Both the position numbers and the translations under genes were made by a program. From NCBI RefSeq assembly GCF_016834455.1, contig NZ_CP069213.1:2604501-2668500 (forward strand): DNA of 64,000 nt. The letters are read 5' to 3'. Below, one piece after another: positions 8,588-46,848 of this stretch (the first letter of the stretch is position 1; every line of letters starts with the position of its first letter). Source of the DNA: Shewanella litorisediminis (lineage in GTDB: Bacteria > Pseudomonadota > Gammaproteobacteria > Enterobacterales > Shewanellaceae). The notes beneath the pieces were generated by a model. That model worked only from the letters and a program-made list of their open reading frames with translations. It did not search any database and was not told the DNA's origin.

Positions 8588-8650
8588 TTCCCCTGTTCCC
8601 TGTTCCCCTATTCCCCTGTTCCTCTATTCCCCAATCCACCTATTCCCCAG
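8588..8650. repeat. Degenerate TTCCCC tandem repeat, period 7-8
   Basis: Runs of TTCCC recur about every 7-8 bases over some 60 bases in the 337-base gap between napF and the bactofilin gene. The remaining gap is ordinary sequence with no gene seen. Confidence 0.7.
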
Positions 8651-19680: not shown

Positions 19681-19760
19681 AAGCAGAGCGGGCTAAAGCC
19701 CGTCCAGAAAAAGCAGAGCGCTTCGCTTCCAGATTCTAGAATCTAGAATCTAGAATCTAG
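19681..19760. repeat. Hairpin modules plus (AATCTAG)n heptamers
   Basis: A GCGGGCT/AGCCCGT hairpin, an AGCG-CTT-CGCT hairpin, then four heptamers (ATTCTAG and three AATCTAG, 19733-19760). It lies at the convergent junction of nlpE and rfbC and belongs to the same family as arrays near 21.4, 24.3, 46.7, 49.5 and 52.5 kb. Confidence 0.85.
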
Positions 19761-19826
19761 AAGCGATTTGCCGCAAGCAGATTAAACGCGGCATAAAGAT
19801 GTTCACCAAGGGTGGAGCGGAAAAAA

Positions 19827-21288: not shown

Positions 21289-21310
21289 CGAAACATTACC
21301 TTGTGTGAAA

Positions 21311-21460
21311 ACAGAGCGCTTCGCTTCTAGAGCGTCGCTTTGCGACTTCTAGGTTCTAGGTTCTAGGTTCTAGGTTCTAGGTTCTAGGTTCTAGGTTCTA
21401 GGTTCTAGGTTCTAGGTTCTAGATTCTAGGGTCTAGCAGCCCGCTTTGTGGGCGCTCTGG
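21311..21460. repeat. (TTCTAGG)n heptamer array with hairpins, between rfbA and rfbD
   Basis: Two hairpins (AGCG-CTT-CGCT and GTCGC-TTT-GCGAC) run straight into ten perfect TTCTAGG units (21347-21416), then TTCTAGA, TTCTAGG and GTCTAGC, and a GCCCGC-TTT-GTGGGC hairpin ending next to rfbA. Because 7 is not a multiple of 3, and CTAG is its own complement, TAG occurs in all frames of both strands. Confidence 0.95.
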
Positions 21461-21471
21461 CGCGAAGCGCA

Positions 21472-22374
21472 CTAAAGCAAACCGCGTAAATAGTCTCCGT
21501 ATCCGCTCTGGCTAAGCGCCTTTGCGTGCTGCAACAAGGTCTCTGTCGATATCCAGCCCTGGCGATAGGCGATTTCTTCAAGACACGCAATCTTCAGACC
21601 TTGTCGCTTTTCAATGGTTTGCACAAAATGCCCGGCTTCCATCAGCGCATCGTGGGTACCTGTATCCAACCAGGCAAAGCCCCGCCCAAGCACACTCACC
21701 TGTAATTGGTTGGCTGCGAGATACGCATTATTGATGTCGGTAATTTCAAGCTCTCCGCGGGCCGAATGCGTAAGGCTTTTAGCAATCTCAATGACCTGAT
21801 TATCGTAAAAATACAAGCCGGTGACTGCGTAATGGGACTTGGGCTCGCGAGGCTTTTCTTCAATGCTGACAGCACGGCCTGTGTTATCAAACTCCACTAC
21901 CCCAAATCGCTCGGGGTTTGTCACATGGTAGGCAAACACCGTGGCGCCGTGAGAGCAATCCACGGCCTGCTGCAGCTGCCTGGAAAAGCTTTGGCCGTAG
22001 AAAATATTGTCACCCAGGATGAGGGCAACCTTGTCATTACCGATAAAGTCTTCACCGATTAAAAATGCCTGGGCTATCCCTTCGGGTTTGGATTGAACGG
22101 CATAACTGATGCGAATGCCAAGGCCACTGCCATCACCGAGCAAAGATTGGAAACCTGCAAGGTCACTTGCCGTGGATATCAGCAGGATGTCGCGAATGCC
22201 GGCAAGCATGAGCACCGACAGCGGATAGTACACCATGGGTTTGTCGTACACGGGCAACAACTGCTTGGATACGCCGCGGGTAATGGGATAAAGCCTGCTG
22301 CCGGTACCGCCCGCTAGGATAATGCCTTTGGTCGTTTGAGTGTTAAATGCTGAATGCTGAATGTTAAGTGACAT
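21472..22374 (-). CDS. rfbA: Glucose-1-phosphate thymidylyltransferase
   Basis: A 300-residue nucleotidyltransferase making dTDP-glucose. The catalytic signature [11 protein letters not shown] and [11 protein letters not shown] follow directly. RfbA normally begins at or just before KGIILAGG. Here no ATG exists at that place; translation must start at 22374, and residues 2-15 ([14 protein letters not shown]) are encoded by degenerate heptamers. No clear Shine-Dalgarno sequence precedes this ATG, which lies four bases after the stop of the four-helix-bundle gene, so translational coupling is likely. Confidence 0.92.
22335..22369. repeat. Five heptamers within the 5' end of rfbA
   Basis: On the + strand TTTGAGT, GTTAAAT, GCTGAAT, GCTGAAT, GTTAAGT follow each other in 7-base steps. 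They are in the opposite orientation to the (ATTCACC)n array on the other side of the four-helix-bundle gene. Confidence 0.8.
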
Positions 22375-22378
22375 GACT

Positions 22379-22744
22379 TTACTTAGTTTGATTCTGCTGA
22401 GCAGATTTTACGATAGCTACAATGAGTTTGATTAGCTCTTCACTTTGCTCCAACAGCGACACAACATGGGAATCTTTGCTATTCAGGTAGTCTGTTTCAC
22501 ACAAAAGCAATAGCCAATAGTGAGTCTCTCTGGCTTCCTTGCTCGCTATCGCCATTTTAGCAATAAAATCAGCATGGCTTTGTGCGGATTGAGCTTCATT
22601 CACATTGGCCCCAATCGAAGTACCCGATCTGAGTAACTGCTTAGAGAGCACGAATTCTTTTTGATTTTTCACTAAGTGCTGACTGAGCTTCACTATTCTG
22701 ACAGCAAATTGAAACGACTTATCAAGCACTGCATTACCAGTCAT
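22379..22744 (-). CDS. Four-helix-bundle protein (S23/IVS-like), first copy
   Basis: A 121-residue helical protein of the four-helix-bundle family (23S rRNA intervening-sequence protein, structurally related to the Avd protein of diversity-generating retroelements). Family features are [28 protein letters not shown] and [15 protein letters not shown]. The cellular role of stand-alone members is unknown. GGGAG lies about 8 bases before the ATG. It sits between rfbB and rfbA, unrelated to rhamnose synthesis, with heptamer arrays at both ends. Confidence 0.85.
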
Positions 22745-22760
22745 CAGCGTTACTCCCTAA

Positions 22761-22956
22761 GTTCACCACTCACGATTCACCATTCACCATTCACCATTCA
22801 CCATTCACCATTCACCATTCACCATTCACCATTCACCATTCACCATTCACCACTCACCATTCACCATTCACCATTCACCATTCACCATTCACCATTCACC
22901 ATTCACCACTCACCATTCACCATTCACCATTCACCATTCACCATTCACCATTCAAA
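22761..22956. repeat. (ATTCACC)n heptamer array
   Basis: 27 consecutive 7-base units from GTTCACC at 22761 to 22949, then ATTCAAA. Units 2, 14 and 22 read ACTCAC(G/C), the rest ATTCACC; the 8-unit spacing of the last two suggests internal duplication. The right end overlaps the last codons and the stop of rfbB. Confidence 0.97.
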
Positions 22957-24071
22957 ACATACCACTCTACCGTTTTACGCAGTCCCGATTCAAAGGTCTC
23001 CTGCGGTTTCCAGCCGAGCTCTTCGGTAATTTTGCTGGCATCAATGGCGTAGCGAACATCATGGCCGGGTCTGTCAGCCACGAAAGCGATAAGACTTTCG
23101 TAACGTTGAGAACTGGGGGATGAATGATGAGGATTGAGCTCCTGAGCGCGCTCATGCAGGGGCGCCAACTCGTCGAGGATCGCACAAATGCTTTTAACCA
23201 CCTCGAGATTTTGACGCTCGCAATTCCCGCCGATGTTATAAGTCTCGCCTACCCGCCCACGTGTTAATACGGCCAGCAGCGCCCTAGCGTGGTCTTCCAC
23301 ATAGAGCCAATCGCGGCTTTGGTTTCCTTGCCCATATACGGGTAACGCCTTACCCGCCAGCGCATTTTGAATAGTCAGCGGTATCAGTTTTTCCGGGTAT
23401 TGAAATGGCCCGTAGTTGTTGGAGCAGTTGCTGACAACTATCGGCAAACCATAGGTTCGGTGCCATGCTCTAACCAGATGATCGCTTGAGGCCTTGGAGG
23501 CGGAATAAGGCGATGACGGGGCATAAGCGCTGCTTTCGGTAAAAGGTGCTGCTGCTTTTAACGCTGAATCATGAATGTTCAATGGTGAATTTGCACCACG
23601 AGCGTTCAATTCAGCATTCACAACCAAACATTCGGCATGAACTTGGTCAGCAAGGTCGCCAAATACCTCGTCGGTCGAGACATGATGAAATCGAAATGCG
23701 TTTTTACGCATATCGTCGAGCTGCAGCCAGTATTCACGGGCAACTTCCAATAAGGTGTAAGTACCCACTATGTTGGTTTGGATAAAGGCATCCGCACCGG
23801 ATATAGAGCGGTCGACATGGGTTTCTGCAGCAAGGTGCATCACCACATCGGGCTGATGGCGAGCAAAAACCGCCCCAAGCGCCTGCCTGTCACAGATGTC
23901 CACACGCTCAAGCGCGTATCTGGCGCTTTCGGCCGCCTCAGTGACCGAATCCAGATTTGCCGCATAAGTCAGCTTGTCGACATTCACCACGCTGTGTTCA
24001 GTGTGACTGATTAAATGTCTGATTACCGCCGAACCGATAAAGCCGCAGCCACCTGTGATAAGAATCTTCAT
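22938..24071 (-). CDS. rfbB: dTDP-glucose 4,6-dehydratase with in-frame insert
   Basis: A 377-residue SDR enzyme converting dTDP-glucose to dTDP-4-keto-6-deoxyglucose. TGGCGFIG (6-13), the catalytic STDEVFGD (132-139) and YSASK (189-193) are intact. Between the last two motifs, where family members have a short linker, about 30 extra residues (roughly 145-174) are encoded by an inverted heptamer block. A smaller extra stretch lies near 309-321. The final residues LNGEW and the TGA stop come from the (GGTGAAT)n array. Start at 24071 (MKILITGG) has GAGG upstream; the frame extends four codons further. Confidence 0.92.
23563..23636. repeat. Inverted heptamer block inside rfbB
   Basis: On the + strand GCTGAAT, CATGAAT, GTTCAAT, GGTGAAT (23563-23590), an 18-base spacer, then ATTCAGC, ATTCACA, ACCAAAC, ATTCGGC (23609-23636). 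The two arms are in opposite orientation, the same layout as around the four-helix-bundle gene but with no gene between. Confidence 0.75.
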
Positions 24072-24089
24072 GGACAACCTCAATAAAGC

Positions 24090-24512
24090 AGAGCGGGCTT
24101 CGCCCTTCTAGAAAAACAGAGCGCTTCGCTTCCAGAGCGTCGCTGCGCGGCTGCTGGGTTCTAAGAAAACCGAACGTTCGCAAGCTTACTACCGAACGCT
24201 GCACTACGGCGAACGCTCGATAACAGCTCCTGCGTTATTCTACCTCCTGCGTCCATGCAGTCGTGCGCTACGGAAAAAGACGAGCGCTTCGCTGCTAGAA
24301 AAAACGGAACGCTTCGCTTACAGAAAACCGAACATTCGCAGACTCACTACCGAACGCTGCGCTACTAGAAAGCAGAAAAAACAGCGCTTCACTTCCAGCA
24401 TCTCGAAGCCCGCTCCGCGGGCGCTCTGTGGCTGCGCAGCAGCGTTCTGTAGCCGCTTGCGGCGTTCCGTAGGCCAAAGGCCGTTCTGTAAGCTCGCCTC
24501 GCGAGCGTTCCA
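24090..24512. repeat. Hairpin-linker array between glmM and rfbB
   Basis: Most of this 552-base gene-free gap is made of short repeats: several AGCG-CTT-CGCT and GAACGCT/AACGTTCGC-type modules, then a regular run of five hairpins at 24408-24506. Their stems differ (GCCCGC, GCTGC, GCCGC, GGCC, GCTCGC) but each pairs with itself, and they are joined by 8-9-base linkers of the form GTTCTGTA. I see no gene here; short open frames are by-products of the repeats. Confidence 0.85.
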
Positions 24513-24567
24513 GCAGAAGCGTTGACGCTGCGCCCTTAAGCCACACCAAGAACTTTGCCCAGAATAC

Positions 24568-46204: not shown

Positions 46205-46209
46205 ATTAT

Positions 46210-46276
46210 TAGGTTTTAGGTACTAGGTACTAGGCCCTAGGAAAGCTTAAAGATTTCTAAAGAAGGTTCTAGGTTA
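46210..46276. repeat. TAGGNNN heptamers between wzz and four-helix-bundle gene
   Basis: Five successive 7-base units TAGGTTT, TAGGTAC, TAGGTAC, TAGGCCC, TAGGAAA (46210-46244), and a further GGTTCTAGGTTAG that overlaps the stop codon of the four-helix-bundle gene. Confidence 0.85.
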
Positions 46277-46648
46277 GATGTTGTAATCAACAGAACCTTC
46301 TCTAACACTGCCTTTGCGTATTTTAATAAGAGCCGCGATCATTGCTGAGATTTCTTTTGCCTCTCTAATTAGCAAGCCTCCTTGCTGTTTTTCGATTAGT
46401 CCAATCTCAACTGCAATATAGATCTGTGTAACGAGCTCACCAGCAGATCCCTTTGCAAAGTACAGAAACCTTGCTGACTCAGCTTGAGATTCTCTCTCTT
46501 CACCTTCTGCTATATTAGACGGTATCGAGACAGCGGCTCGAGTCATTTGATCCTTTAGCCCATAATCTCGACTGTCTTTTAATGCTTTATAAACATCACA
46601 AGCAAGTCGGGAAGCGCGTTTCCAAACATCCAATTGTTCAAAGCGCAT
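46274..46648 (-). CDS. Four-helix-bundle protein (S23/IVS-like), second copy
   Basis: A 124-residue helical protein of the same broad family as the one at 22379-22744 but of another subfamily. Typical features are FEQLDVWKRASRLACDVY, RAAVSIPSNIAEGEE and RFLYFAKGSAGELVTQI. AAGGAG lies seven bases before the ATG, and repeat sequence begins directly upstream of that and directly after the stop. It has no known role in polysaccharide export although it sits between the Wza-like gene and wzz. Confidence 0.88.
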   Translation of the reverse strand: MRFEQLDVWKRASRLACDVYKALKDSRDYGLKDQMTRAAVSIPSNIAEGEERESQAESARFLYFAKGSAGELVTQIYIAVEIGLIEKQQGGLLIREAKEISAMIAALIKIRKGSVREGSVDYNI

Positions 46649-46662
46649 CTGCGGACTCCTTA

Positions 46663-46848
46663 AGTTCCAAGTTCTAGGTTCCGGAAACCCGCTTTGCGGG
46701 TGTCCAAGCAGTTGCGAAGCAACGTCCTAGATCCTAGGGCCTAGCATCCCGCTAGAGCGGGCGTCCAAGAAGCAGCGGCTTTCGCTGCGTCCTGGCAGTT
46801 GCGAAGCAACGTTCTAGATTCCTGGGCCTGCCAACTCGAGAAGCGAGT
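46663..46848. repeat. Heptamer and hairpin array after the Wza-like gene
   Basis: Three heptamers, then hairpins ACCCGC-TTT-GCGGGT, GTTGC-GAA-GCAAC (twice, 46711 and 46798), a CCCGCT/AGCGGG stem, GCAGCG/CGCTGC and ACTCG/CGAGT. They are joined by CTAG heptamers such as GTCCTAG-ATCCTAG-GGCCTAG. The module hairpin-plus-three-heptamers occurs twice with an 87-base period. The array starts at the stop codon of the export gene. Confidence 0.9.

Follow-up and report, generated by a model that had tools for sequence, protein, structure and literature searches.

A four-helix-bundle gene framed by inverted heptamer arrays: a candidate free-standing relative of the 23S rRNA intervening sequences

A gene for a four-helix-bundle protein of family PF05635 lies between rfbB and rfbA in the 64-kb window (the whole stretch of DNA analysed), framed by two tandem arrays of 7-bp units that are inverted relative to each other. 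We lean slightly towards the view that this cassette is a free-standing relative of the intervening sequence (IVS) of 23S rRNA, one that does without a transposase and whose protein probably reads its own heptamers. To our knowledge, PF05635 proteins are widespread, and we know of no function for them; nor do we know of an explanation so far for bacterial heptamer arrays. The cassette ties the family and the arrays together through a repeat word that is specific to the gene and can be tested. If the proposed relationship is true, the 23S rRNA IVS would take its place in a wider class, and the cassettes would provide a comparative system for the joint change of repeat word and protein. The family also becomes a concrete candidate for the repeat-binding protein that MacGregor speculated might itself be the mobile element (PMC4679880).

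The cassette between rfbB and rfbA

Both flanking arrays agree with the sequences listed in a preliminary description of this DNA, which counted 27 units on the right. The left array reads TTTGAGT GTTAAAT GCTGAAT GCTGAAT GTTAAGT on the plus strand, and Tandem Repeats Finder reports the right array as 27.6 copies of TTCACCA (95% matches, score 358). In the sense of the gene, the order is therefore (GAATGGT)n, the gene and ATTCAGC-type units, and the arms are indeed inverted as described, with an inverted similarity of 0.84 vs a direct similarity of 0.41. Under one scoring scheme the window contains seven period-7 segments vs none or one for each of periods 4-6 and 8-13, an array signal above chance; period 14, a multiple of 7, gives three. 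Table 1 lists these features together with the other heptamer features of the window.

Table 1 Cassette, host genes and other heptamer features of the window.
Feature	Position	Strand	Basis or remark
Four-helix-bundle gene (PF05635 / TIGR02436), 121 aa	22379..22744	-	Profile matches and AlphaFold2 model
Upstream arm (gene sense), ~27 GAATGGT units, ATTCACC on plus strand	about 22762-22954		Tandem Repeats Finder; extends into rfbB frame
Downstream arm, five inverted heptamers	22335..22369		Also codes first residues of rfbA ORF
rfbB ORF (host gene)	22938..24083	-	TIGR01181; 3' end array-encoded
rfbA ORF (host gene)	21472..22374	-	TIGR01207; array-encoded N-terminal extension
Gene-less inverted heptamer insert inside rfbB ORF	about 23563..23636		Hairpin z -2.86 for 23560-23640
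Second PF05635 gene, between wza-like and wzz-like genes	46274..46648	-	
Array downstream of second gene, TAGGTAC type	46209..46241		Tandem Repeats Finder
Upstream side of second gene, degenerate TTCTAGG-type heptamers and interleaved small hairpins	46660..46745		By eye
Gene-less TTCTAGG array, 12.9 units, word type of second gene	21347..21436		Tandem Repeats Finder
Gene-less AGAATCT array	19727..19762		Tandem Repeats Finder

The protein exceeds the curated cut-offs of both PF05635 (93.2 bits vs 33.8) and TIGR02436 (104.8 bits vs 24) and is a member of the four-helix-bundle family to which it had been assigned; it has no Pfam match besides PF05635. An AlphaFold2 model predicts four helices with a mean pLDDT of 95.9, and the nearest solved structures are 2rld (BT_0352) and 2gsc (Xcc0516). 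Six residues (Q36, R39, S43, N47, E50 and E73) are conserved at 96-100% across 205 aligned proteins. The flanking ORFs match RfbA and dTDP-glucose 4,6-dehydratase by their TIGRFAM profiles, in agreement with the claim that the cassette separates rfbB and rfbA. The arrays reach into both host genes: the rfbB stop codon lies inside the right array, the start of the listed rfbA ORF lies inside the left array, and the native rfbB end is longer in relatives that lack the four-helix gene.

The gene-less insert within rfbB is present in the genome of the window and in relatives G128 and G008 and absent in G090, G073 and G034; G049 carries another, shorter sequence at the site. The two PF05635 genes of the window adjoin heptamers of different words. 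The G008 copy of the second gene has long CCTAGAA arrays on both sides, and its arms are direct.

Heptamers beside homologous genes

The combination of gene and heptamers is real and general. A protein-only similarity search of genome contigs gave 406 loci, of which the best 80 were taken. Under a strict threshold, period-7 segments occur within 300 bp of the gene at 49 of these best 80 of 406, and the 300-bp zones together hold 85 of them vs 0-2 segments for each of periods 5, 6 and 8-12. Under a milder score, with three of the 80 dropped that had less than 100 bp of flank on one side, an array is present at 62 of 77 loci (47 upstream, 50 downstream, 35 on both sides), while no control period (4-6, 8-13) exceeds 3 at the same 77 loci; 15 of these cross-phylum homologues have no array at this threshold. 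Within 150 bp, arrays adjoin 61 of 76 four-helix genes (from the best 80 of 406) vs 45 of 288 control genes, which belong to the same loci and are situated at least 600 bp away (p 3e-26), a roughly fivefold enrichment; period 8 occurs beside 5 of the 288 control genes. The 63 array-bearing loci represent 12 named phyla, and plasmid copies add Cyanobacteriota, Bacillota and Spirochaetota. Plasmid heptamers were scored by eye in 10 of 25 records, all 5 matches of a DNA search and five chosen from the protein list. Two copies on phage contigs showed no arms by eye.

In a set of 47 multi-copy genes from seven genomes out of 23, 27 pass the array threshold and 20 have no array that reaches it. Period 8 passes in four of the 47, and 8-bp units were rejected. 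In the genus of the window, 68 of 129 genomes have the gene. The array count there covers 91 of 105 matches, the rest being weak, fragmentary or not retrieved, and 8 of the 91 ORFs as called are shorter than 300 bp; an array was scored at 38 copies and none at threshold at 53, with control periods other than 14 reaching at most 1. The preliminary description had made its element idea depend on most homologues having heptamers nearby. Across phyla the majority of the best 80 of 406 do, by the 150-bp comparison above, but within the genus only a minority of copies do.

When arrays occur on both sides they are inverted in 42 of 46 cases and direct in four. Direct arms include the G008 copy noted above and, by eye, a Treponema plasmid copy. 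The arms of a gene pair better with each other (median -25.8 kcal/mol) than with arms of other loci (-15.0 kcal/mol, n=124). Measured against the arms of all loci, only 56 of 124 own downstream arms rank within the best 5%, because many loci share AATT-rich words. A within-genome control, covering 41 of the 47 multi-copy genes in five genomes with 6-11 usable copies, yields 30 genes out of 41 that pair best with their own downstream arm, where 5.0 would be expected (p 4e-8); by eye, most multi-copy genes of these five genomes carry different words. Between phyla, heptamer similarity correlates with protein similarity once G+C difference is removed (partial r 0.69, p<=0.0005; 63 loci, 1456 pairs); for distant protein pairs below 0.6 it does so more weakly (r 0.18, p 0.008). 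A word that follows the protein clade would be explained by co-evolution or by joint transfer of gene and arms. Either way gene and arms form a unit, a conclusion that we regard as close to certain.

Several stricter descriptions of the arms were tried and rejected. The order of units is not mirrored between arms as in a strict long hairpin (17 loci above, 15 below and 2 level with the permuted mean among 34, p 0.17), and in two comparisons with shuffled sequence, RNA folding of the whole element showed no excess stability (z -0.58 and -1.55). Contiguity of the positions that vary within a unit is only weak (0.87 vs 0.81). Nor does the word keep one polarity with respect to the gene in all elements, as Nostoc plasmid elements are reversed. 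In the Nostocales plasmid copies (L204, L205 and L340-L342), the arms are short, inverted and near-perfect, and the word polarity is opposite to that of Bacteroidota copies.

The gene lies in the sense of its surroundings. Where the neighbours are co-oriented, the four-helix gene shares their direction in 49 of 50 cases in the global set (best 80 of 406), in 23 of 25 in the multi-copy set and in 57 of 57 in the genus, where copies are not independent. By a second gene caller the ratio was 52:1, compared with 166:31 among other genes (p 0.005); 75 of 78 four-helix genes follow an upstream neighbour of the same direction, as do 220 of 299 other genes, both among the best 80 of 406. This bias is consistent with use or tolerance of the host transcript by the element. 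Among the exceptions is a copy on an Anabaena cylindrica plasmid (L350, 589-936), which lies between cas2 and cas1, antisense to both, in line with the 18 four-helix genes of this kind reported from cas loci in the available part of PMC3936711. On a Monoglobus pectinilyticus plasmid (L351, 601-945) an unlisted four-helix ORF with heptamer arms separates two genes of a type I restriction system, hsdS and hsdR.

Filled, empty and gene-less sites

In an unpolarised comparison, the left flanks of three Tenacibaculum copies were used to find the corresponding site in a close relative. In the closest pair (L322 and L348, searched flank 99% identical), the stop-to-start spacer is 431 bp vs 6 bp. By eye no target-site duplication was recognised in this pair, and the filled allele does not preserve ATATTA, the 6-bp spacer of the empty one. 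In the other two pairs (L320/L344, flank 96%; L321/L346, 89%) the relative lacks the gene and has another short sequence instead. At the gene-less site L344 (G136:C1), this short sequence contains a TGTCATTCTGAACTTG.. inverted motif and may be another kind of dispersed repeat.

The rfbB-rfbA junction also varies between relatives. The window gene occupies it in its own genome (about 27 upstream units), in G128 (about 3) and in G008 (6-7). G049 has no four-helix gene there, and its RfbA is 84% identical. G001 carries another family member, whose matched part is 41% identical to the second window protein and which is flanked by GAAGGGT and TTACTGC arrays, and G122 has a bare array of six CTAGAAC units. 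In G064 and G021, interrupted gene copies stand beside degenerate GAATGGT-like units. Of 30 RfbA loci, 27 have no match to either four-helix protein of the window in the stretch examined. The wza-wzz junction, by comparison, holds 51 of the 91 genus copies, from 51 genomes and all in the same sense, and is therefore either a hotspot or a site where copies have long been retained. The G128 gene there is 43% identical to that of the window genome and G008, and the wza side is 93% identical.

Empty sites thus exist, as the element idea of the preliminary description required, both among the RfbA loci and in the relatives of all three Tenacibaculum copies. Filled and empty sites, together with the shared word, support the mobile part of its proposal that gene and heptamers form a mobile or self-amplifying unit. 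That the cassette moves is well supported by these sequence comparisons. No transposase and no target duplication were recognised for it.

Arrays also occur apart from the gene. Among the 68 genomes of the genus with the gene, 59 contain TTCTAGG arrays, compared with 20 of the 61 in which the search found no gene (odds ratio 13, p 2e-10, kinship uncorrected and gene-adjoining arrays counted). Three genomes that are gene-negative by search (G029, G006 and G066) have many arrays, so that arrays persist without a detectable gene. Co-occurrence of two further cognate words within the genus gave no clear support. AGCTCGA arrays are found in 16 of 129 genomes, including all four with an AGCTCGA-flanked gene, and in G028 only at the gene itself; since AGCTCGA read backwards is the same word, the backward control is uninformative. 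ACTTGTC, with 3 mismatches allowed, matches in 45 of 129 genomes, most highly in G066, where no gene was found, followed by G059 and G079, which have the gene. The backward control also matched in some genomes, and the result is mixed.

Two repeats of the genome of the window lie away from both of its PF05635 genes: an ATTCCCC/ATTCACC array (L033, G000:C1:3362913-3362982) and, within the window at 8588-8648, a TTCCCCTA/TTCCCCTG repeat of mixed period 7/8/16.

Relation to known elements and alternative readings

The cassette resembles the 23S rRNA IVS in protein family, similar size, terminal inverted repeats and heptamers beside the start codon. In the available part of one account, the S23p ORF in the 428-nt IVS of Coxiella burnetii is immediately preceded by tandem GACAGAT heptamers, fewer of them in some strains; this IVS has a 28-bp terminal stem and is cut out by RNase III (PMC4990558). 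The heptamers may make up this stem. The authors considered that Coxiella S23p is probably not expressed and that the RNA is more important (PMC4990558). The cassette has the S23p-family ORF and the terminal inverted repeats of the IVS class, but unlike an IVS it lies between two protein genes instead of inside 23S rRNA; both its arms are heptamer arrays, and the word differs between genes. A general link between the PF05635 family and heptamers was not found among the matches listed in the literature searched, which held few subscription papers and no bioRxiv preprints, the Coxiella heptamers (PMC4990558) apart. As far as that literature goes, the cassette class looks undescribed.

The nearest family with a known role is Avd; the kinship named in the preliminary description rests on a comparison of folds and on the homology to PF05635 that was suggested in the available part of PMC10053308. 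The model of the window protein has a fold similar to Avd (VIA Z 13.6, rmsd 2.1, 109 residues aligned to 4dwl), but unrelated bundles reach 12-13, so fold likeness alone does not separate Avd from other bundles. The PHROG Avd profile matches only the second window gene, and weakly (E 0.0017). Avd in diversity-generating retroelements is linked to a reverse transcriptase, whereas the single PF00078 match of the genome (G000:C1:3456570) is about 0.8 Mb from the window. A resident reverse transcriptase was rejected as a general engine, PF00078 being present in 5 of 13 genomes; it was not found in five genomes with 6-9 four-helix copies. The insert in rfbB is also reminiscent of a MITE, a short inverted-repeat insert in coding DNA, although no parent transposase is seen for the cassette and its ends are heptamer arrays.

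In the favoured reading, the unit comprises roughly 0.4-0.6 kb: a heptamer arm, a basic S23p-like four-helix gene and an inverted arm of the same word. Lying in sense at transcribed junctions, the cassette would ride the host operon transcript, in which the paired arms would frame it as a stem. The protein would most likely recognise the heptamer word of its own cassette, in an RNA stem or in cruciform DNA, and promote copying of the cassette or of its arms. Arrays and inverted pairs that lack a gene would then be side products of the same activity, mobilised in trans. A bolder and distinctly more doubtful proposal extends this to the chemistry of insertion. Here an Avd/S23p-superfamily protein would specify, copy and insert the heptamer-ended cassette by way of the host transcript; such cassettes would form a transposase-less mobile class, the 23S rRNA IVS would be a special case that landed in rRNA, and many known heptamer arrays would be footprints.

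Much of the evidence could also be read as autoregulation. The protein might bind the arms of its own mRNA and thereby control its own gene and perhaps the operon neighbours (surface polysaccharide), while the module spreads by ordinary transfer and recombination. The sense bias of 49:1, the gene-specific word with matched arms and the upstream array that at one site numbers ~27, 6-7 or 3 units depending on the close relative would all suit such a module. The 51 of 91 genus copies at wza-wzz, from 51 genomes, count in its favour as well and, together with the 20 of 47 multi-copy genes below threshold, slightly weaken the mobile reading and raise the regulatory one. However, filled vs empty sites in close relatives, the antisense cas2-cas1 copy and the hsdS-hsdR copy, and the gene-less arrays and gene-less hairpin elsewhere all call for some way of moving, and we consider a purely regulatory module possible but unlikely. 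Movement could instead occur at the level of DNA, with host or resident enzymes cutting arm cruciforms or single-stranded hairpins and the four-helix protein serving as a DNA-binding helper. In RAYT-REPIN systems, a gene is flanked by inverted cognate repeats and gene-less copies occur elsewhere, a pattern shared by the cassette with its dispersed gene-less arrays; the excess of TTCTAGG arrays in gene-positive genomes (59 of 68 vs 20 of 61, kinship uncorrected and gene-adjoining arrays counted) counts in favour of this mode as well. Those systems, however, have a Y1 (HUH) transposase and palindromes, whereas the cassette has tandem 7-mers and a protein that matches PF05635 only, with a four-helix fold and not that of a transposase. 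The sense bias of 49:1 is also unexpected for DNA hairpins, although selection against antisense copies could produce it. We judge this mode of mobilisation improbable.

The two remaining explanations carry little weight relative to a mobile cassette. Polymerase slippage might make 7-bp arrays widely, with the gene merely adjoining them. Long arrays do change length, and rfbB natively contains GAGTGGT beside its array, so that local seeding of that array is possible; heptamers are moreover over-represented among bacterial simple repeats, according to the available parts of PMC4679880 and PMC4692102. This reading is largely contradicted by arrays being about five times as frequent here as beside control genes in these loci (best 80 of 406), by the same word in inverted form on both sides and by arms matched per gene within one genome, and passive microsatellites are very improbable. 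The presence of tandem repeats directly upstream of a small gene recalls type III toxin-antitoxin loci, in which case the upstream repeat RNA would neutralise the protein. Against this, the cassette has 7-nt units and an inverted second arm downstream, and the window protein is predicted to adopt a four-helix fold. The ToxN fold is unlike a four-helix bundle, and no ToxN-type match to the window protein appears among the structure matches listed. As far as the available part of the source reports, Coxiella S23p did not slow the growth of E. coli (PMC4990558). A toxin-antitoxin analogue is more improbable still.

Heptamer arrays described previously share some of these features. The TAACTGA repeats of Beggiatoaceae and the GGGNATC repeats of Xanthomonas and Nostoc are likewise 7-nt tandem units and mostly intergenic, and inverted pairs were noted in Xanthomonas (PMC4679880, PMC4692102, available parts). 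The available parts of these accounts name no associated protein family, whereas the cassette ties a family to the repeats, and Rehm et al. saw no general association of their heptamer arrays with insertion sequences or transposable elements (PMC4692102, available part). Within the window, small GC-rich REP-like hairpins (such as CCCGC..GCGGG and GTTGC..GCAAC) were seen by eye among the CTAG-type heptamers at 24080-24550, 21300-21480 and 46690-46840.
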